A DNA stretch of 60,985 nt from a virus: positions 1-60,985 of IMG/VR virus record IMGVR_UViG_3300048924_000616. One strand, written 5' to 3'. Below are positions 6,174 to 59,734 of the stretch, piece after piece; position 1 is the stretch's first letter; every line of letters starts with the position of its first letter. The position numbers were made by a program, and so were the translations under genes. The notes beneath the pieces were generated by a model. The model was not told the DNA's origin. It ran no database searches and saw only the letters and a list, made by a program, of their open reading frames with translations.

Positions 6174-6338
6174 TTAGCGTGAATATGCCCAAAGCAGTCC
6201 GAGCGTCAGAAGTATTATAAAAGCCGGAGGCATGACGTAGAGCAACAAAACTGCTCGAAGACTTTCCAGTTCTTGAGCGCGCTGTATCTCCAGCATGGTC
6301 TGTATCGACAGGATGTTCACGGCGATGTGCTCGATCAA
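6174..6338 (-). CDS. Small membrane protein (54 aa, TTG start)
   Basis: The frame begins with TTG overlapping the protease stop (TTGA), with GAGG 5 nt upstream. The product has an amphipathic N-terminal helix rich in Q, E and L, and one strong membrane span near the C-terminus (about residues 32-51). Function is unknown. Coupling to the exported protease suggests a partner or anchor. A later GTG could be an alternative start. Confidence 0.5.
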   Translation of the reverse strand: MIEHIAVNILSIQTMLEIQRAQELESLRAVLLLYVMPPAFIILLTLGLLWAYSR

Positions 6339-6988
6339 TCCGACCTCGCCAGCAGTCCGCAAACAGCGCTCGAGGGAACGACGTAGCCGTAACCAACCAG
6401 CGAGCCAGAAAAGCCAATCTGCGCAGACATCACGCCAACGGTGATGCCAATGAGATCGCCCGATGCTGAAAAGACAGGCCCGCCTGAATGCCCCATCACA
6501 GTGGTGATGTCGGTGACATAAACGGACTTCCATGGACCGGCCTGCCGTGGCGCACCGGCGATCTTGCCGTATGCAGCAACAAACTCGACTGACAAAGGAT
6601 TGCCGTAGGCGGTGATACTCTCTCCGGCTTTCACATCTGTGCAGGATAGCCGAGCTACGCCTAAACCGTCCGACGACGTGCGCAGCAGTGCAATGTCTTG
6701 CGCAGTATTCACCCACAGTACATCGGCACTATGCAGTAGACCGTCCTTTGCCTTCACTTGCACAGTCTTTTCCGAGCCGACGACGTGCGCAGCAGTGACG
6801 ATAAACCCGTCACCAATATGAACGCCAGAACCGTGTCCTCGGGCATGAATGACTTTGACGGTTGCAGTTTCAGTTGCTGGAACGTTGAACGCTGCAACGC
6901 TCGGAGCGGCGAAGATTGCGGCTGCCGCCAAAGCCGTAATGAGGAATGCGACTGCTATGCGTCTGAACCTGTGAAGATAATACTTCAT
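6335..6988 (-). CDS. Exported trypsin-like serine protease
   Basis: A 217-residue chymotrypsin-fold protease. The N-terminus has a basic patch and a hydrophobic signal or anchor (about residues 13-33). The catalytic triad is visible: H in VTAAHVV (about 68), D in QDIALL (about 103), S in GHSGGPV (about 166). Such DegP/HhoA-like single domains act in the periplasm; no PDZ domain follows. A protease of this kind is uncommon in phages and may act in lysogenic conversion or on host envelope proteins. The upstream element at 7032-7052 probably controls it. Confidence 0.8.
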   Translation of the reverse strand: MKYYLHRFRRIAVAFLITALAAAAIFAAPSVAAFNVPATETATVKVIHARGHGSGVHIGDGFIVTAAHVVGSEKTVQVKAKDGLLHSADVLWVNTAQDIALLRTSSDGLGVARLSCTDVKAGESITAYGNPLSVEFVAAYGKIAGAPRQAGPWKSVYVTDITTVMGHSGGPVFSASGDLIGITVGVMSAQIGFSGSLVGYGYVVPSSAVCGLLARSD

Positions 6989-7481: not shown

Positions 7482-7735
7482 AGCCAGACAACGAATGCGG
7501 CCCCAGAATAAAAGACGTCAACAGCCCCATCATTGAAGTAGTATGCGTACCGTGTCAGCACCGCGATGTTCTCGAACGAAAAGCGATCGTGAGAAAGCTC
7601 GGTGCTGACGCAAGCTTTTCGCGATTGAGACGACGGTTGGCCATGGGATGTGACCGCTTTTTCCATGCCGAAGGCGATCGGTGCGGAATGCGCTTTCCGT
7701 GCCTAGAGGGCGTTGAGCCCATAACAGAGGAATAA
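7466..7735 (+). CDS. Cys-rich hypothetical protein (89 aa)
   Basis: An 89-residue basic protein. A CVPC pair near residue 29 and three later cysteines (MGCDRF, DRCGMRFPC) suggest a zinc site. The ATG follows GGAG and lies inside the end of the previous gene, indicating coupling. Possibly a small nucleic-acid-binding protein; function not known. Confidence 0.65.
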   Translation: MRRYLKPDNECGPRIKDVNSPIIEVVCVPCQHRDVLERKAIVRKLGADASFSRLRRRLAMGCDRFFHAEGDRCGMRFPCLEGVEPITEE

Positions 7736-7737
7736 CG

Positions 7738-7905
7738 ATGAGCGATGAAAAAACCAAGGCTGGTGATGGAGTAATTGACCAGCATTATTGCTGCGTTCCT
7801 GAATGCAAGAAATGGGGCGGAATGGGCTACGCGCGCACGGCAGTAGAGCCGGTCAATTGGTGGTGTGCAGAGCACTATCCATACTGGAACATGCATAAAC
7901 GATGA
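7738..7905 (+). CDS. Small putative zinc-binding protein (55 aa)
   Basis: A 55-residue protein with CCVPEC, then WWCAEH 23 residues later, consistent with a C-x3-C...C-x2-H zinc site. It has an AGAGGAATAACG leader and its stop overlaps the start of the nuclease gene (ATGA). It is one of a set of small Cys-containing proteins in this rightward cluster. Function unknown. Confidence 0.6.
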   Translation: MSDEKTKAGDGVIDQHYCCVPECKKWGGMGYARTAVEPVNWWCAEHYPYWNMHKR

Positions 7906-8342
7906 AATTATTCACCGCTCTTTCCGTACTGCTTATATCCCCACTGCCTTCTCATGCAGCCCAAGGCATCGCATGCGCCTCTCTGACGGTGATCGACGGC
8001 GACACCATCAAATGCGACGGTCAGAATATGCGGTTGCTTGGCGGTGGAGTGCCGTTCAAGTCTGGCGTTGACGCACCTGAGATGGGCAGCCGTGCCAAGT
8101 GCGAGGCTGAACGCTTGCTGGCGCTGAAAGCCAAAGCCCGGTTGAAAGAACTGTTGCTGTCCGGCGTTCCCCGCATTGAAGACAGTGGCGCAAGGGATAG
8201 AACCTCAAGCCGCCGGCCCTTGATCAATATCTACCTTGCTGATGGGCGCGAGGTTGGCAAAGTACTGATCTCTGAGGGTTTGGCTCGAGAGTGGCGACCG
8301 AAACAGCGCATTGATTGGTGTGGGAGCCCCACCAAAGGATGA
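7902..8342 (+). CDS. Secreted staphylococcal-nuclease-like protein
   Basis: A 146-residue protein with a signal peptide (residues 1-19, cleavage after SHA) and a thermonuclease (SNase) fold: VIDGDTIKC, MRLLG, GVDAPEM and the basic ARDRTSSRRPL segment supply the metal-binding and arginine positions. A short insertion (GGVPFKSG) separates the MRLLG strand from VDAPE, where most relatives run straight on, so the active-site geometry may differ. Members cleave DNA or RNA. Export would put it in the periplasm, where it could attack incoming DNA. Last gene of the cluster. Confidence 0.75.
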   Translation: MKLFTALSVLLISPLPSHAAQGIACASLTVIDGDTIKCDGQNMRLLGGGVPFKSGVDAPEMGSRAKCEAERLLALKAKARLKELLLSGVPRIEDSGARDRTSSRRPLINIYLADGREVGKVLISEGLAREWRPKQRIDWCGSPTKG

Positions 8343-8361
8343 TGGGGTGTTGAGGCGCTAT

Positions 8362-8550
8362 TTAGCAGCGGTCTGCGATTTCTGATTTAATGGCATCAAT
8401 CCCGTCCTCGATGGCCTTAAGCGCTTTGCGGGCGTTTGGGCTATACTGAGGGCCAAGCATTTGTTTGCCTTGATCCAAAGCGTCTTGGTGTTTCACTAAC
8501 TCTGCCCGGAGATCGTCGCATGAGAGCTGGCCTAGTGGTGCTGAAGTCAT
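8362..8550 (-). CDS. Small helical protein (62 aa)
   Basis: A 62-residue, almost entirely helical protein with two cysteines, encoded convergently to the nuclease. The SD GGGAG lies 7 nt before the ATG. No family recognised. Confidence 0.55.
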   Translation of the reverse strand: MTSAPLGQLSCDDLRAELVKHQDALDQGKQMLGPQYSPNARKALKAIEDGIDAIKSEIADRC

Positions 8551-8560
8551 AAAATCTCCC

Positions 8561-8700
8561 TCTCTACTTAGGGATGCTATTCATATGGCGGCGCAACTTA
8601 ATTATTCGTTGCCCCCCTCAGAGGCAAAAGCCGATCGGGTCACCACTAGCGTTTTTACTGAGCTCGCCATTCTTGTCCGCCCCTATCTTTTAAGTAGAGA
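8561..8700. repeat. Pair of 10-bp inverted repeats in an intergenic region
   Basis: TCTCTACTTA (8561-8570) and its exact complement TAAGTAGAGA (8691-8700) bracket 120 bp with no convincing gene. Together with the promoter/operator just downstream, this accounts for the 309-bp gap 8551-8859. It may be a protein-binding pair or the remains of a small insertion. Confidence 0.45.
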
Positions 8701-8730
8701 AATATTACCCGAATGGTTGCAGTCCTGAAA

Positions 8731-8764
8731 TTGACCAAACAACTCAACTAAAATAATTTTAGTT
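8731..8764 (+). promoter_or_regulatory. Promoter overlapped by a 19-bp palindrome
   Basis: TTGACC (8731-8736), 17-nt spacer, TAATTT (8754-8759). The -10 region is covered by a perfect palindrome AACTAAAAT-A-ATTTTAGTT (8746-8764), an arrangement expected of a repressed promoter. It would drive the gene at 8860. Confidence 0.5.
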
Positions 8765-8859
8765 TCAATAACTTATCTGTTGAAACAATGAAAAAACGTT
8801 GGACGACATCAATATGCGGTGGCTTCGATAAATTGTTAACTACAAAAGGAGCCCTAAAC

Positions 8860-9093
8860 ATGAACGCAAAAACATACCAAGACACACTCATTGAGCTGGC
8901 ACCCAACAAGGACTGCGAAGCTAAGTTCAAAGGGAAAAACTGTTACGCATTTCGTGGTGCCGCGCTCCCTGATAATGTGGCGAAAAACTTTCACGTCGTG
9001 GGTGATAAACTATTTCTTTATCCTACGGGATGTGAACCATTTTTGGCGGCCGATCTTCATCGCGGCTATATCCTGATCGACCAAAAAGCATGA
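8860..9093 (+). CDS. Hypothetical protein (77 aa)
   Basis: A 77-residue soluble protein behind a strong SD (AAAGGAG, 8 nt). It contains three cysteines and mixed alpha/beta character. It stands alone between a palindrome-covered promoter and a strong terminator, a typical moron layout expressed from the prophage. Function unknown. Confidence 0.65.
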   Translation: MNAKTYQDTLIELAPNKDCEAKFKGKNCYAFRGAALPDNVAKNFHVVGDKLFLYPTGCEPFLAADLHRGYILIDQKA

Positions 9094-9925: not shown

Positions 9926-10008
9926 GCTGAACCCACCTTTTGATGTAGGGGTGGTGGTGGTACGCTATTCTTGCCCCCACAAAATTGCAAAGTAATTGAC
10001 AACCCTTC

Positions 10009-10033
10009 AACGCAGCTTAAATGCTGCGTTTTT
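10009..10033 (+). terminator. Terminator or attenuator before the acyltransferase
   Basis: AACGCAGC, loop TTAAAT, GCTGCGTT, then TTT: a terminator-like hairpin only 21 nt before the acyltransferase ATG. A TTGACA lies just upstream (9997-10002), so the hairpin may attenuate that gene or simply insulate it. Confidence 0.55.
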
Positions 10034-10054
10034 ATATTTAAGGATTGCCAAATA

Positions 10055-11101
10055 ATGCTTTATTCTCTTCAGTATTTGCGCGCCACTGCGGCGACGATGG
10101 TAGTTTTGTACCATATAGGGCTTATTTTTGGGAGCGATTGGAGAGGGCTCGCAGCTGGTGTCGATATCTTCTTCGTCATCAGCGGCTTCATAATGTGGTA
10201 TATAACCACGGGGAAGCGCCCCCCTAGCGTGAAGCGGTTTCTGCTTGATCGTGCAGTGAAGGTTGTACCCCCTTACTGGATATTCACATTGGTTTTCGCA
10301 GGGGCGGCCATGGTTACACCGCCCGCAATCTTCTCTTGGACGTTGAATTTTCCAGAACTGCTGAAGTCGCTTCTGTTTGTTCCCTATTTTTCGTCGGCCG
10401 AAAAACTTGAGCCTGTTTTGGGTGTTGGTTGGACGTTGAACTTCGAGATCTATTTCTACCTGATTTTCGCTGTTGCACTCATCATTCCCGCGAAAAATCG
10501 TTTGGCCTTCATTCTAACTTTTCTAACCGCCTGCGCGGCCATGTCGATCGTCGGTTTCGAGAATGCAATACTTAAGACCTACACATCCCCTCTCGTTCTG
10601 GAATTTGCTGGCGGTGTACTTATAGCAGTCTGGTTGCGTTCAGGTGGCCGCCTGCCGACGGTGGTAGGTGCGCTACTAATTCTAGCGGGAGCACTAGCGA
10701 TCCTAACTGACGGCGGCGATGGTTCGCACTCTTGGGCAATGCGGGTTATTCGTTTTGGTTTGCCAGCTATAATGATAGTTTTAGGGTGCCTGGTTATCGA
10801 GAGAAACAAGAAACCCGAGCCGATTGAATGGCTAAAATTTCTCGGTGACGCATCGTATTCGATCTATCTGACCCACATCATAACCATAGAAGTGTTCAAA
10901 TACGTCTTTTCCAAGCTAGGTCTGGAGCGCTGGGGAAGCTCGGTGACGCAACAGTCAGTGATGTATCTCATTACATTGGCGGCGTGCATGGCAGTGGGCA
11001 TTGCATGCTACAAATTAGTAGAGGAACCAATGCACAATTGGATGCGGCGACGGGTATCTACAAATCGAGTTGCGCCAGAAACCGCAGGTGTGCACCGATA
11101 A
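10055..11101 (+). CDS. Acyltransferase 3 family membrane O-acyltransferase
   Basis: A 348-residue integral membrane protein with about ten hydrophobic spans. Family signatures: the start RATAATMVVLYHIG with the catalytic-type histidine, GVDIFFVISGF, and the Arg-containing SVKRFLLDRAVKVVPPYW. Acyltransferase-3 enzymes transfer acetyl or succinyl groups to surface sugars. In phages they usually O-acetylate O-antigen, changing serotype and blocking re-adsorption. The solitary rightward gene, not part of the late operon, fits expression during lysogeny. The acceptor sugar cannot be predicted. Confidence 0.85.
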   Translation: MLYSLQYLRATAATMVVLYHIGLIFGSDWRGLAAGVDIFFVISGFIMWYITTGKRPPSVKRFLLDRAVKVVPPYWIFTLVFAGAAMVTPPAIFSWTLNFPELLKSLLFVPYFSSAEKLEPVLGVGWTLNFEIYFYLIFAVALIIPAKNRLAFILTFLTACAAMSIVGFENAILKTYTSPLVLEFAGGVLIAVWLRSGGRLPTVVGALLILAGALAILTDGGDGSHSWAMRVIRFGLPAIMIVLGCLVIERNKKPEPIEWLKFLGDASYSIYLTHIITIEVFKYVFSKLGLERWGSSVTQQSVMYLITLAACMAVGIACYKLVEEPMHNWMRRRVSTNRVAPETAGVHR

Positions 11102-35706: not shown

Positions 35707-35783
35707 TGGTTGCGGAGGTGAGATTTGAACTCACGGCCTCCAGCTTATGAGGCTGGCGAGCTACCGGACTGCTCTACTCCACG
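35707..35783 (-). tRNA. tRNA-Met(CAT), initiator-like
   Basis: A 77-nt cloverleaf with encoded CCA: acceptor CGTGGAG/CTCCGCA, D-stem GAGC/GCTC, anticodon loop CTCATAA, variable loop AGGCC, T-stem GTGAG/CTCAC with loop TTCAAAT. The C1-A72 mismatch and A11-T24 pair are initiator features, but the anticodon stem (CCAGC/GCTGG) lacks the three consecutive G:C pairs of tRNA-fMet. It stands alone just upstream of the HNH gene. Confidence 0.88.
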
Positions 35784-38113: not shown

Positions 38114-38356
38114 CGTTTGCGTCGATCGAGCCGACCTGCGTGCGAGGCAAAATTATAGGTCTTCAGCAAAATGTATTTCGCTATTATAGCAGTTTGAACC
38201 GCACATTTGATAGGCATGGTCGCGTGCTGCAGCACCGCCTATCTGTGATCTTTAGCGCCAACTAACAATTGTGCACAACTGTATTTGGATACTTGGCAAG
38301 CAATATCAAAAGTTTAATTATCAGACACTAAAGCAATTCATGGGGGAGAACCTACG

Positions 38357-39661
38357 ATTAGTGTCTCGACCGATTTCACATCTTTTTTTCAGAACATTTC
38401 CATCGACAATGCAGATACAATTTCGTTGCGCTACGGCGAAGTCACTCGAGCGCTGAATCTAGAATTCAGGGGCACTGATAATCGCGTGGCGAACAACCTG
38501 CAGGTCGGCTCGTATGGTAGACATACCGCCATCAGGGGCATATCGGACTTGGACATGCTATATATCATGCCTGCCAGCGCATGGGATGATTACAAGGATG
38601 GCGGTCAATATAAGTTACTTAAACGAGCCGCGGACGCAATCAGATCTCGTTATTCGCGAACGACAGTTTATCCTGACACATTGGTAGTAGTTGTTGAATA
38701 CAGCAACTTCAAAATAGAAGTTCAGCCAGTCTTCGATGATGGTAATGGTCACTACCTGTACCCTTACACACGAAATGGCGGAGCCTGGCGAACAACCAAA
38801 CCCCGTCCTGAGTTGCTGGCCACAGCCGACGTTGATAAGGATAAGAATGGCAATCTAAGACGCCTAGCAAAGCTCACCCGCGCTTGGAAAAATAAACACG
38901 GTGTCGCGATGGGTGGCCTTCTAATCGATACGCTTGCGTACAACTACTTGCGAACCACCGACGAGTTTGATGAGACAAGTTTCGGCGGATGCGCAAATAT
39001 GATCACGGGTTTTCTTGAGTATTTAAGCAATGAACAGGACCACGACAGATACCATGCCCTTGGCAGTGGACAACATGTGAAGGTTCACAAAAAATTCCAG
39101 AAAAAAGCTTTGAAGGGATTAAAGATTGCGCAAGACGCATTAGCTGCAGGCGAGACTGCAAGCGCAAATAACTATTGGCGCGCGCTGTTTGGACGGGCGT
39201 TTCCCGTTGCTCAAACAAATATTGTCGAAAGTGCTTCGGCTAAAAGTGCGTCAAACCCTATGCGCAACGTGGAATTCGTTGAGGATCTATTTCCAGTCGA
39301 TATACGCTACAACATGCGAATAGAGTGTGAGGTTTCCCAATCCGGATTTCGGAGCTTCTTCATGAGAGCCACAAAAGCGACGCGCCTAAGCCGATTTATT
39401 GAAAGGGAAAAAAATCTCCGGTTCTTCATAAGCAGCCATAACATCAAGGGTGATTTCAAAGTTCACTGGAAGGTATTAAATCGAGGCTCTGAAGCTATCA
39501 GAAGAGATATGGTTCGAGGTCAGATTGAACTCGGCACGCCCACGAAAATTGAGCACTCATCATTCCGTGGTGAGCATGTAGTTGACTGCTACGCTGTCCA
39601 GAACGGCGTAGTCATTGCAAAGGACCGCATACACGTTCCGATCACAGAAGAGGCTCAATAA
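38357..39661 (+). CDS. CBASS CD-NTase (SMODS-type nucleotidyltransferase)
   Basis: A cGAS/DncV-like nucleotidyltransferase. The catalytic signature GSYGRHTAIRGISDLD gives GS and the D-x-D metal pair, and a third carboxylate lies in KIEVQPVF. A helical OAS1-type C-terminal region follows, with extra sequence at the end. Such enzymes make cyclic di- or trinucleotides on phage infection. No ATG/GTG/TTG fits the expected N-terminus. TTG at 38426 has no SD and would remove about 23 residues, whereas ATT at 38357 has GGGGGAG 8 nt upstream and gives about 434 residues. Followed by a SLATT effector gene after 1 nt. Confidence 0.8.
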   Translation: MSVSTDFTSFFQNISIDNADTISLRYGEVTRALNLEFRGTDNRVANNLQVGSYGRHTAIRGISDLDMLYIMPASAWDDYKDGGQYKLLKRAADAIRSRYSRTTVYPDTLVVVVEYSNFKIEVQPVFDDGNGHYLYPYTRNGGAWRTTKPRPELLATADVDKDKNGNLRRLAKLTRAWKNKHGVAMGGLLIDTLAYNYLRTTDEFDETSFGGCANMITGFLEYLSNEQDHDRYHALGSGQHVKVHKKFQKKALKGLKIAQDALAAGETASANNYWRALFGRAFPVAQTNIVESASAKSASNPMRNVEFVEDLFPVDIRYNMRIECEVSQSGFRSFFMRATKATRLSRFIEREKNLRFFISSHNIKGDFKVHWKVLNRGSEAIRRDMVRGQIELGTPTKIEHSSFRGEHVVDCYAVQNGVVIAKDRIHVPITEEAQ

Positions 39662-39662
39662 C

Positions 39663-40256
39663 ATGGGTAAGGACGAGTTGCTCAAAACAATTGCTGAAAC
39701 CGGTTACAATATCGGCTTCGGTGCTAGAAAAACGTTTGCCACCCTAGATATCGCAGAAAAAGGCCCTGGCTGGATTGGGCTGATTTCATTCGCTCTCGGA
39801 ACATTTGCACTATTCGTCGACGAATTGTCGGCGAAGATTCCCTCTGCGATCCTGTTAATCGCTGGTGTCGCATCGCTTTACATGGGTTTCTATCGAGCAA
39901 GCGACTACGAACCGACGGCTAAACACCTGCTAAGACTGCAGAACAAACTGAGAGACCTTTATCGTTCCGTGAAAGATGGCGCAAATCTGACACAATCGCA
40001 AGACGAGCTACAGCTGATCGAGCAAGAGTTTCACTCAATCACAGTGAGCAAACAGATTTTCTTAAGCGACTGGTATGCTCATTACAAATTCTTTGCCCAG
40101 ACGCAAATCGGCTGGATGGATGAGCAACTCGATTTCAAGTTCTGGAGGGATATGATACCTCTATCAGCTAAGATAGTTATCATATCTTTGATGGTTGGGT
40201 TACTCGCAGCCTTTGCGCATTATCTTGTGAAAAATAACTTCAGTCTCATGTGCTAA
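39663..40256 (+). CDS. SLATT-domain membrane effector
   Basis: A 197-residue protein with two close membrane spans (about residues 35-53 and 57-75), a cytoplasmic helical region of about 85 residues and a third span near the C-terminus (about 167-188). This is the layout of SLATT proteins, which pair with CD-NTases and are thought to form membrane pores when a cyclic nucleotide is made. Start follows the CD-NTase stop by 1 nt, so the two are one operon. The effector assignment is inferred from architecture and context. Confidence 0.75.
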   Translation: MGKDELLKTIAETGYNIGFGARKTFATLDIAEKGPGWIGLISFALGTFALFVDELSAKIPSAILLIAGVASLYMGFYRASDYEPTAKHLLRLQNKLRDLYRSVKDGANLTQSQDELQLIEQEFHSITVSKQIFLSDWYAHYKFFAQTQIGWMDEQLDFKFWRDMIPLSAKIVIISLMVGLLAAFAHYLVKNNFSLMC

Positions 40257-40262
40257 ACAAAA

Positions 40263-40290
40263 AAGGCCGGTGCGATACCACACCGACCTT
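40263..40290 (-). terminator. Hairpin after the SLATT gene, strongest leftward
   Basis: AAGGCCGGTG/CACCGACCTT (one mismatch, 8-nt loop). Leftward it is followed by six T (good terminator); rightward by CTTGTC (weak). Rightward readthrough from the CBASS pair into the EEP pair is therefore possible. The rest of 40291-40529 shows no gene. Confidence 0.65.
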
Positions 40291-40529: not shown

Positions 40530-41405
40530 ATGAAATTGAGAATTTGTTGGTGGAATACTGGCCTGTCGCCGCCGATAGGAGTAGCGAACGATCCAGGTCA
40601 TTTGCTGGAAGTTATCGAAAAGTTGAAGATTTTGCAAAATTCTGATGTCGACCTATTTTGCTTGGGAGAGGTGAACGAGGAAGCAATAGCGGATATATCC
40701 AATTCACCGAATTTCGCAGACTACGTTTTTTTAGACCGAGCTAAAGACGGCGCAACCAGATACAATATGTCTTTCGGCTTCAAGAAAAATAGTATGCGAC
40801 TGGAAAACTTTGTATTCATTGCGGAGCGCATCAGTACACAAAAAAGAAAGATAGCTCAGAGCTTCGATCTCGTATTGAAGGATAACTCCAGTTTTCGCTT
40901 GTTTGCAGTCCATTGGCCAAGCAGGCTATACGCACCAGAAACAGCGAACACTAGATCTTATATCGGAGTTATACTCAGAAGCCTCATCAATGATGAGATC
41001 GAGCAATCACCTGACGCGAAGATTATTTTGTTAGGTGATTTTAATGATGAACCATTTAATGAAGCAATCCATGGCACACTAAGTGCGTCGAGGGATCCGG
41101 AATTTGTGAAGATTAACAATTATCTTCTCTACAACCCCTTCTGGAAGAAGATGTCGCCATCTACCAATGGAACAGCTGACCGCGTCATGTGTGGGTCTTA
41201 CTATTATCAATCAGGCACCACTCATAAATGGTTTGTTTTTGATCAAGCCCTTGTTTCCTCATCCTTGCTGAGAGGCTCGGATTGGAATCTAATTGAAGAT
41301 GAAACAGACATCTGGCCAGACGGAAATCAGTTTGGCGTCGGACCGCAGATGAGCAAAACCATCGATCATCTGCCCATCATCGTCACAATAGGAAAATTGA
41401 AATGA
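40530..41405 (+). CDS. EEP-family nuclease/phosphatase
   Basis: A 291-residue endonuclease/exonuclease/phosphatase domain with all core residues: N9 (WWNTG), E47 (LGEVNE), H128 (VHWPSR), D170 and N172 (LLGDFNDEP), a D in FDQALVS and the terminal D279-H280. These Mg-dependent enzymes cut DNA or RNA, or hydrolyse phosphate esters. Codon use and AT-richness match the CBASS genes rather than the phage. The stop overlaps the start of the next gene (ATGA), making a coupled pair. Confidence 0.8.
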   Translation: MKLRICWWNTGLSPPIGVANDPGHLLEVIEKLKILQNSDVDLFCLGEVNEEAIADISNSPNFADYVFLDRAKDGATRYNMSFGFKKNSMRLENFVFIAERISTQKRKIAQSFDLVLKDNSSFRLFAVHWPSRLYAPETANTRSYIGVILRSLINDEIEQSPDAKIILLGDFNDEPFNEAIHGTLSASRDPEFVKINNYLLYNPFWKKMSPSTNGTADRVMCGSYYYQSGTTHKWFVFDQALVSSSLLRGSDWNLIEDETDIWPDGNQFGVGPQMSKTIDHLPIIVTIGKLK

Positions 41406-41803
41406 TTGATATTCGATCTTCACTCCAAGAAGCAGTTAACCTTGCTAGCCAAAGCGATAAAAACAATAAAGAAATAGACCAATTAATTCAAAGCGTAGCG
41501 CAGCAAATTCATGACTTTTCTGGCGGTTCCGCGACAATGGCAGTGCGACCAAAGTCTTTGGACGATTTTGAGCTTACAGTTGATCTAAAAAACGCACATC
41601 AAGATGTAATAGAAATAAAAGTGGGAGAGGAAGCGCACAAAATTGCGAAATTTGGAAGATCGCAAATGGGCTATCCATGTACCTTGATTTTTGGCAATGG
41701 TGCCATCCAGGCGTTGGATAAAGAGGCGTTAGGATTAGCGTTTTCTGATCTGATGAAAACGCATCGCGTCGGAACCATCATATACGACAGCATTAACCGC
41801 TAG
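41402..41803 (+). CDS. Unknown partner of the EEP nuclease (133 aa)
   Basis: A 133-residue alpha/beta protein that I do not recognise. It has a helical, polar N-terminal 40 residues, a beta core (FELTVDLKNAHQDVIEIKVG, CTLIFGNG) and a helical end. It has no signal peptide, membrane span or Cys pair. It is translationally coupled to the EEP gene by ATGA, so it is probably a sensor, inhibitor or subunit of that enzyme. A bidirectional terminator follows 32 nt after the stop. Confidence 0.65.
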   Translation: MIDIRSSLQEAVNLASQSDKNNKEIDQLIQSVAQQIHDFSGGSATMAVRPKSLDDFELTVDLKNAHQDVIEIKVGEEAHKIAKFGRSQMGYPCTLIFGNGAIQALDKEALGLAFSDLMKTHRVGTIIYDSINR

Positions 41804-41835: not shown

Positions 41836-41858
41836 GGCGGCCTCTCGACCGCCCTCCT
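41836..41858. terminator. Bidirectional terminator between cargo island and primase gene
   Basis: GGCGG, 8-nt loop, CCGCC with CTCCTTTTCTC rightward and TTTCTCATTT leftward. It lies between converging genes. Confidence 0.65.
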
Positions 41859-52483: not shown

Positions 52484-52767
52484 AAATCCATCTCCTTCGT
52501 AAACAGACATCTGGCTGGTTTGGCTGGGTCTTGAATGAACGCGAGACACCAAGGCATGCCATCACGGCGTACCCACTCATCTGGCTGGCCACCCCACAAA
52601 GCCTGAGCGCGAATGATGCAAACGCCGGGAGCGTCGTTGCCGAATTCGTCTTCCCAGTTTTCGCCCTCATCGCTGCGGCAGTGGCGGCACCAGCTTCGTT
52701 CAAAGTCAGCGCCTTCGGTGGAGTTAGCGGGCCGCCATGGCCCGCCGTCGTGGTTATCAGCGGTCAT
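52480..52767 (-). CDS. Trp/Cys-rich hypothetical protein (95 aa)
   Basis: A 95-residue acidic protein with seven tryptophans, a CRHC pair near residue 27 and further single cysteines. Start overlaps the beta-clamp stop. Similar small proteins follow clamp genes in related phages; no function can be assigned. Confidence 0.65.
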   Translation of the reverse strand: MTADNHDGGPWRPANSTEGADFERSWCRHCRSDEGENWEDEFGNDAPGVCIIRAQALWGGQPDEWVRRDGMPWCLAFIQDPAKPARCLFTKEMDL

Positions 52768-53816
52768 CAGACGCGCATCGGCATGCAGACGAGCGTAAGA
52801 CCCTCGAAGCCGTCGGACGTGATGAGCCCGGGCATTCCACCATCCTGCAGCGCCAGCTTGACAGGGCCACCAGGCAGAACATTCAGCACGTCGCGGACGT
52901 AAGCGGCATTGAAGCCAATATCGATTGGCTCGCCACTGTACTCCGCCTCAACCTCGTCATTCGCCGAAGCCTCGCCAGCTGCAACAGCAAGCGCAATGCT
53001 GCCGGGTGCAATGCTGAACTTCACGGCGCGGCCACGTTCAGACGACACCGTCGACACACGGTCCGACGCTTTCATCAGCGCATCACGGTCTACCGTAACG
53101 ACGTGCTCGTTGCTCTTCGGAATGACGCGCTCGTAGTCCGGGAATGTGCCGTCGATAAGTTTCGAGGTGATGCGCACATCATCCGACACGATGCGGATCT
53201 TCTGCTGGCTCACCGCAACTTGCACCTTGCCCTTTGGAAGCAGACCGACGGTCTTGCGCGGCACGATGACACCATGAAACTCTGGCAGCTCCGGACCGCT
53301 ATGACGCGCGAGGCGATGCCCGTCAGTCGCGACAGCGACAGATTGACCGCCTTTGAAGAACACGCCGTTCAAGTAATAACGCGTCTCTTCTGTCGAGATA
53401 GCAAACGCCACCGGTGCGAACAGCGCGGCGATATCGAGCTCAAACTCGGCGTCGAAGCTGTCCTCTCCAAGAGTTGGAAAATCATTGGCTGGCAAGGTCG
53501 ACAAGGTGAAGCGAGAACGACCGGACTTAACGGACAGCTTATCGCCATCGAGCGTCATGGTAATATCGCCAGTCGCTTTGCGGGCGATGTCGTTGAGCAG
53601 CTTTGCGCTCACACAGATATTGCCTGGTGTCGTTACTTCGGCCGGCACGCCAGCTGTAGCTATGATATCAAGGTCTGTAGCCGTCACAGCAAGGCCGTCA
53701 GCGGCAGCAGCGAGTTGAACACTGGATAGGATAGGAATTGTCGATCTGCTCTCGACGACCTTTGTCGTGGACGCAAGAACGCGCGTCAGGTCATCCTTGT
53801 GAATAACAAGGTGCAT
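52767..53816 (-). CDS. dnaN: DNA polymerase III beta sliding clamp
   Basis: A 349-residue beta clamp recognisable over its whole length: N-terminal IPILSSVQLAA, DGLAVTATDLD, domain 2 VFFKGGQSVAVATDGHRLA, and the terminal MPMRV that closes bacterial clamps (usually MPMRL). Slightly shorter than host clamps (about 365-375). It would tether host polymerase III, or redirect it to phage DNA. A phage-encoded full clamp without a phage polymerase is notable. The leader hairpin at 53845-53867 precedes it. Confidence 0.9.
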   Translation of the reverse strand: MHLVIHKDDLTRVLASTTKVVESRSTIPILSSVQLAAAADGLAVTATDLDIIATAGVPAEVTTPGNICVSAKLLNDIARKATGDITMTLDGDKLSVKSGRSRFTLSTLPANDFPTLGEDSFDAEFELDIAALFAPVAFAISTEETRYYLNGVFFKGGQSVAVATDGHRLARHSGPELPEFHGVIVPRKTVGLLPKGKVQVAVSQQKIRIVSDDVRITSKLIDGTFPDYERVIPKSNEHVVTVDRDALMKASDRVSTVSSERGRAVKFSIAPGSIALAVAAGEASANDEVEAEYSGEPIDIGFNAAYVRDVLNVLPGGPVKLALQDGGMPGLITSDGFEGLTLVCMPMRV

Positions 53817-58918: not shown

Positions 58919-59734
58919 ATGGAAACAGAGCTCCAGCAGATTTTAAATGACCAATTGCGTATCGTTTTCGACGGAAACGCGAGCGAGTTGGCTCGAGTCG
59001 TCGGGACCAGCCAGCAGAACATTAGTAACTTTCTCAACGGCGATGTTCTTAAACCATCGTATTGGAAGAGGGCCGCAGAGGCCTTAGAGATTCCAGAAAA
59101 CCTCATGGAAAGCCTTATTGACGATGCAAAAAAACAGGGAACGTTCGTTTCCGTCCCGACCGCAAGCGGCATGAGTGAGGCAATGTACAGGACCCCCGCC
59201 GCCCATCTAAATGATATGGGAGTGCCTACCCCGACGCCGACGCCGAACCACCCAAGGCCTATGGCTCCGCCTACAAAGTTTCCACCCATTCCAAACGCAA
59301 CCGTTCAACCTCAGCAAGGTATTGTAACAACTAATAAAATGCTTCCAGTTCTTGGCGAGGCCGTTGGCGGCGTTGATGGGAAATACATATTCAACGGTAG
59401 CATCATCGACTACGTGGTATGCCCCCCTTCCCTTGAAAATGTAGCTGGTGCCTATGCCGTCTACATCGACGGCGAGTCGATGTATCCGCGATACAAGGCT
59501 GGTGAAACAGCCTGGGTTCACCCAAACAAGCCGGCTCGTCGAGGTGATGATGTGATCGTGCAGATCCACCCGCCGGAGGATGATGGTTCTCCGCCATGGG
59601 GTTACGTGAAGGAGTTCGTAGGCTGGAGCGGCGATCGACTCGTTCTCAACCAGTTTAATCCTGCAGGAGAAATCAGGTTCGATCGAAGCGAAGTCGTCAG
59701 CATTCACCCTATCGTACTTTCAGGAAAATACTGA
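58919..59734 (+). CDS. S24-family CI-like repressor
   Basis: A 271-residue lysogeny repressor. N-terminal HTH (ASELARVVGTSQQNISNFLNG, about residues 20-42), an unusually Pro-rich linker (TPTPTPNHPRPMAPP, about 102-118), and a C-terminal LexA/CI peptidase domain with Ser in DGESMYPRY (about 182) and Lys in YVKEF. RecA-stimulated self-cleavage would induce lytic growth. SD AAGGAATAAG precedes the ATG. Flanking operators share TTTGTGA half-sites, so it probably represses both divergent units and itself. Confidence 0.85.
   Translation: METELQQILNDQLRIVFDGNASELARVVGTSQQNISNFLNGDVLKPSYWKRAAEALEIPENLMESLIDDAKKQGTFVSVPTASGMSEAMYRTPAAHLNDMGVPTPTPTPNHPRPMAPPTKFPPIPNATVQPQQGIVTTNKMLPVLGEAVGGVDGKYIFNGSIIDYVVCPPSLENVAGAYAVYIDGESMYPRYKAGETAWVHPNKPARRGDDVIVQIHPPEDDGSPPWGYVKEFVGWSGDRLVLNQFNPAGEIRFDRSEVVSIHPIVLSGKY

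Follow-up and report, generated by a model that had tools for sequence, protein, structure and literature searches.

Overlapping pairs of genes on mobile elements, in which a toxic-type enzyme is coupled to a small protein, are known from toxin-antitoxin systems with folded antitoxins such as RnlAB and DarTG. In the case of DarTG, a lone antitoxin-like homolog is also found in lytic phages, where AdfB acts as an antitoxin mimic (PMC11481870). The site between gpA and the portal gene of P2-like prophages is a known antiviral hotspot (Rousset 2022, PMC9122126; Vassallo 2022, PMC9519451). EEP domains are represented in defense by those of type II ARMADA (YprA helicase), which are described as inactivated segments of a large helicase protein (PMC12458937). 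Here we compare with these systems a two-gene locus from a 60,985-nt stretch of viral DNA (IMG/VR record IMGVR_UViG_3300048924_000616, hereafter the window), in which a gene for an EEP nuclease is followed by one for a small protein, its partner. The pair resembles RnlAB and DarTG in organization and mobile carriage, but has no relation to them in enzyme class, partner fold, or sequence, and neutralization is here presumed. Nine loci encoding the pair share the gpA-portal insertion site, and a word search of the main texts of both hotspot papers returned no EEP system. Unlike the ARMADA domains, the window EEP is intact and stands as an enzyme of its own, with no helicase. It shares its fold and full active-site set with the EEP superfamily (DNase I, APE1, TDP2, and Nocturnin), but shows only 14 to 19% identity and belongs to a clade of its own in which the enzyme always comes coupled to the partner, the partner-less relatives found being outside that clade. 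A CBASS of the 2TM/SLATT type forms the neighboring cassette in the same phage, a link that is absent from the other loci.

Ten EEP homologs gave no match at E<=1 against PADLOC-DB 2.0.0, and the best PADLOC match of the partner (E=0.02) is spurious. The open-licence literature searched yielded only the inactivated ARMADA domains as EEPs in defense, and the word "exonuclease" is absent from the main text of the DefensePredictor paper (PMC13092281). The first-pass annotation of the window had proposed an undescribed two-gene system, and the pair is indeed a recurring, stand-alone mobile cassette that neither PADLOC 2023 nor the literature searched contains. The cassette has the look of a so far undescribed antiphage or toxin-control system; a prior description outside the literature searched is possible.

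The locus and its two proteins

The nearest records to the window are Sinorhizobium phage NV1.1.1 and Rhizobium phages, and the window is a phage of rhizobial bacteria that is not P2-like. It encodes a lexA/cI-like S24 repressor (58919-59734). The pair lies in an AT-rich, plus-strand block with a CBASS pair (Table 1), which breaks into a run of minus-strand genes and is followed, after the partner gene, by a primase-helicase gene on the opposite strand. The first-pass annotation placed the two coupled genes directly behind the CBASS pair with a shared AT-rich composition, and each of these points holds: the genes are joined via ATGA, the CD-NTase and SLATT_6 genes end 273 nt upstream of the EEP gene, and GC content is 43% for the EEP and 42% for the partner, 46-48% for the CBASS genes, and about 55% for the remaining phage. 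Its description of the pair as enclosed by terminators stands as far as hairpins are present on both sides, but the count of such sites, six, compares with 3.8 +/- 2.1 in shuffled sequence, so the enclosure is weak on its own.

Table 1. Coordinates of the EEP-partner locus and of the CBASS genes preceding it in the window.
Feature	Position	Strand	Length	Basis or remark
EEP-superfamily nuclease gene	40530..41405	+	291 aa	Pfam PF19580/PF03372, AF2, Foldseek, homolog alignment
Partner gene, new family	41402..41803	+	133 aa	No family match; directly follows the EEP in 102 non-redundant loci
ATGA stop/start overlap, EEP/partner (translational coupling)	41402..41405	+		Sequence
Terminator-like hairpin, interval between CBASS pair and EEP pair	40268..40285	+		Site count not significantly above shuffles
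Terminator-like hairpin, 3' of partner gene	41836..41853	+		Site count not significantly above shuffles
CBASS CD-NTase, SMODS + AGS_C (context)	38357..39661	+		Probable non-ATG start; ORF finder start 38426
CBASS SLATT_6 (2TM) effector (context)	39663..40256	+		Pfam, NCBIfam, PADLOC searches

The CD-NTase possesses SMODS and AGS_C domains and matches the PADLOC cyclase model at E=1e-157. Its open reading frame runs in frame for about 23 residues 5' of the first ATG/GTG/TTG (38336-38426), and since these residues carry recognizable family sequence (ISVSTDF...), translation probably starts at an ATT or other non-standard codon near 38357. Elsewhere in the window, a second AT-rich, plus-strand block (8-12 kb) holds an acyltransferase-3 gene (9971-11101, +), likely surface-modification cargo of the phage. 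The window phage also encodes a beta clamp of DNA polymerase III in which the three clamp domains are all present (52767-53816, -), a trypsin-like serine protease that appears to have a signal sequence (6335-6988, -), and a tRNA-Met with a CAT anticodon (35707-35783, -), similar to one in Rhizobium phage RHph_TM3_3_3.

The EEP protein matches Pfam Exo_endo_phos_3 (PF19580; E=5.9e-16, 58.8 bits against a curated cut-off of 27) and Exo_endo_phos (PF03372; E=2.5e-6, 27.9 bits against 24.5), both above gathering. Its AlphaFold2 model (pLDDT 93.7) has the four-layer alpha/beta fold, and Foldseek matches it in the PDB to bacterial EEPs, TDP2, and Nocturnin (E about 1e-13, TM 0.59-0.65); Nocturnin and bacterial EEPs are matched by profile as well. 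The active-site residues listed in the first-pass annotation are retained across 86 homologs, N9, E47, H128, D170, N172, and H280 being invariant and D279 conserved in 97%, and a further invariant active-site residue, D238, is to be added to that list. The protein has no signal sequence, and its first strand starts at residue 2. Conservation of the catalytic residues argues for an active, cytosolic phosphodiesterase. A secreted nuclease or bacteriocin was considered and ruled out, as signal sequence and lysis gene are both lacking and the start is cytosolic.

The partner had been described as a protein of no recognizable family, and the searches bear this out: no significant match was found in Pfam (its antitoxin families included), NCBIfam, or PADLOC, a PDB sequence search gave chance-level matches only, and the only PHROGs matched are unnamed. 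AlphaFold2 predicts, with a pLDDT of 92.8, a 36-residue N-terminal helix, five beta strands, and two C-terminal helices, a fold with no PDB match at E<=0.001 (best matches E>=0.1). A GYPC motif at residues 90-93 of the window copy is conserved among homologs, as are positions G11, A15, E24-I25, D106, L110, and G124; the window copy has A at the G11 position and is missing the second conserved cysteine of the family. Searches with the single partner sequence gave no match in genomes, viral contigs, plasmids, or phages, and the family was recovered only via the EEP neighborhood and profile searches. Five partners from viral contigs (L119, L120, L122, L124, and L146) carry long tails of 150-300 residues with histone-H1-like Lys/Ala/Pro repeats, confined to one sub-branch among those sampled. 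The partner constitutes a new conserved family that is matched one-to-one with one EEP clade.

Recurrence and distribution of the pair

Profile searches yielded 147 loci (80 genome and 56 viral, plus plasmid and phage records), in 124 of which a partner homolog adjoins the EEP gene. The survey of neighborhoods suggested with the first-pass annotation thus returns 102 non-redundant pairs at 85% EEP identity, and a pairing repeated in this many homologous loci is not due to chance. The gap between the genes has a median of 0 nt and lies between -20 and +15 nt in 100 of the 102 pairs. At least six phyla are represented, namely Pseudomonadota (50 named), Myxococcota, Planctomycetota, Spirochaetota, Thermodesulfobacteriota, and Electryoneota, and the carriers include chromosomes, Acinetobacter prophages, a filamentous Vibrio phage (L009), and plasmids, among them ColE1-like ones of 3-3.5 kb. 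On two of the ColE1-like plasmids (L004, L005), all other annotated genes are replication-related. The EEP gene comes first in all loci but one, that of Mitsuaria chitosanitabida (L025), where the partner (7497-7946) lies upstream of the EEP (7959-8954). Decay occurs on both sides: the partner is broken beside an intact EEP in L078 (clearly degenerate) and L005 (frameshifted), and the EEP is broken beside an intact partner in L008/L142 and L073.

In a tree of 66 EEPs, those with partners form one side of a single branch with 95/95 support, recovered in 96% of bootstrap trees, which shows a single origin of the pairing. Distances among EEPs track those among partners (r=0.81; permutations reached no more than 0.16), a correlation that linkage alone could produce. 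Homologous EEPs without a partner, which the first-pass annotation named as counting against a two-gene system, do exist, all of them outside the partner-bearing clade. Outlying EEPs from Bacteroidota, Mariprofundus, and Brocadia (L011-L013, L082-L092) were weighed as partner-less relatives and set aside as a separate group in the tree. In a test with less bias, whole genomes of Acinetobacter (119), Pseudomonas (199), and the order Rhizobiales (297), with the seed genome in each set, contained the partner in 3, 6 (7 loci), and 1 genomes, respectively; all 11 partner loci have an adjoining EEP, in one case interrupted by a stop, and neither a lone partner nor a lone EEP of the partner-bearing clade occurs in the 615 genomes. 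Such low frequencies, under 1 to 3% of genomes, are typical for accessory cargo.

Clustering of the neighbors identified no third conserved gene. Neighbor gaps are wide, with a same-strand neighbor within 30 nt upstream in 9 and downstream in 3 of 96 loci. P2-like portal or terminase genes lie near 18 loci, and the nine in the hotspot have gpA upstream and the portal downstream. Single proteins among the 126 nearest neighbors match the AbiD, Old, AriA, 1TM-TIR, and 2TM families; because these PADLOC matches come without a background control, they are descriptive only, and no defense enrichment is claimed.

Lone partner homologs in Acinetobacter phages

K4NXV2 of Acinetobacter phage IME-AB2 was, independently of the profile, among the best viral fold matches to the partner (Foldseek TM 0.64/0.74). 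Its gene, AB2_37 (L147, 18290-18637, -), matches the partner profile HMM at E=2.5e-14 and belongs to PHROG 10179, for which cross-matches to EEP-linked partners reach E=2e-11; the IME-AB2 genome has no EEP. Stand-alone partner homologs occur in 58 Acinetobacter phage records, which do not overlap with the six phage records in which an EEP was matched, and those with a stated taxonomy are Obolenskvirus. The lone partner appears to be accessory in these phages, since related phages such as AB1 are not among the 58. We take the obolenskviruses to be lytic, and no integrase was found in the maps examined. The EEP pair itself is carried by elements of Acinetobacter baumannii (L006, L008). By analogy with AdfB and DarTG (PMC11481870), the lone phage partner is possibly an antitoxin mimic serving as counter-defense against the EEP cassette; it could also have an unrelated phage function within the same fold family.

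Possible functions of the pair

The pair most likely makes up a stand-alone mobile unit in which a phosphodiesterase is accompanied by its small control protein. We tentatively favor, at somewhat less than an even chance, a two-gene nuclease defense or toxin-control cassette in which the partner restrains the nuclease until infection. The partner would bind the EEP and hold it off in the healthy cell, and a competing phage or other element would upset this balance by shut-off, an inhibitor, or a nucleic-acid signal. The released EEP would then cut nucleic acid, with DNA the likelier substrate, and so abort the infection, and lytic phages encoding the partner alone would practice antitoxin mimicry. 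The first-pass view of the pair as a defense or toxin-antitoxin unit is favored by the P2 hotspot site, the patchy distribution, the catalytic conservation, and the lone partner homolog in lytic phages, while its function is one that we infer. As in type II toxin-antitoxin systems, the two genes are small, overlapping, and mobile, and their overlap suggests co-transcription. The usual type II order places the antitoxin gene upstream of the toxin, whereas here the enzyme comes first; the partner, unlike any antitoxin family, is modeled as a compact folded domain rather than as a known DNA-binding fold with a flexible region. The two-sided decay also speaks against restraint, as an antitoxin-dependent EEP should not readily lose its partner.

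That decay, together with the H1-like tails, is the reason we retain, as the main and a serious rival, a role for the partner as a co-effector or targeting subunit of a defense cassette, which would recruit the EEP to phage DNA or activate it, both proteins being needed for immunity; we consider this less likely than restraint, and the stand-alone partner of the phages would in that case act as a dominant-negative decoy. Loss of the partner beside an intact EEP is tolerated in L078 and L005, the predicted structure is that of a stable folded domain and not of a disordered antitoxin, and the tails suggest contact with nucleic acid, while the obligate one-to-one pairing fits equally well. However, the partner core contains no recognized nucleic-acid-binding domain, it and most EEPs are acidic (median pI among homologs of 5.2 and 6.1, respectively), and the tails are limited to the one sub-branch. 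Carriage on the 3-3.5 kb ColE1-like plasmids and on the filamentous phage could instead point to an addiction module that stabilizes plasmids and prophages by post-segregational killing with no real anti-phage role. This is improbable: small high-copy plasmids would gain little, in several loci an EEP or a partner has decayed where it stands, and the gpA-portal hotspot and the lone partners of lytic phages better match phage conflict.

A housekeeping function for the phage or plasmid, such as DNA processing or host takeover, would agree with the many matches on prophages and with the window being a phage itself, but it has only a slim chance given that the pair is patchy across strains, occurs on unrelated elements and chromosomes, has no fixed genomic position besides cargo hotspots, and stands out within its host phage as AT-rich and on the opposite strand. 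The EEP might also be an extra effector or accessory of the neighboring CD-NTase, with which it shares adjacency, strand, and a similar composition in the window. We consider this most improbable, as a 273-nt gap with a terminator-like hairpin separates them, the EEP is not in PADLOC's CBASS effector models, and no homolog of the window CD-NTase or SLATT was found in any other locus checked, so that the recurrent CD-NTase linkage of a CBASS effector is lacking. The CBASS neighbor is real but incidental, and its adjacency gives no evidence for a functional link.

Taking the restraint reading further, it is quite possible, if still rather short of probable, that the pair represents an undescribed multi-phylum, two-gene immune family with a live EEP effector and a new-fold partner, countered by the lone partner in presumably lytic Obolenskvirus. 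If true, the conflict between phages and bacteria would gain an enzyme class, that of intact EEP nucleases related to DNase I and TDP2, and a protein family now annotated as "hypothetical" would be defined. The nuclease cassette in Acinetobacter prophages and the lone partner in lytic Acinetobacter phages would then make up a pair of attack and counter-attack.
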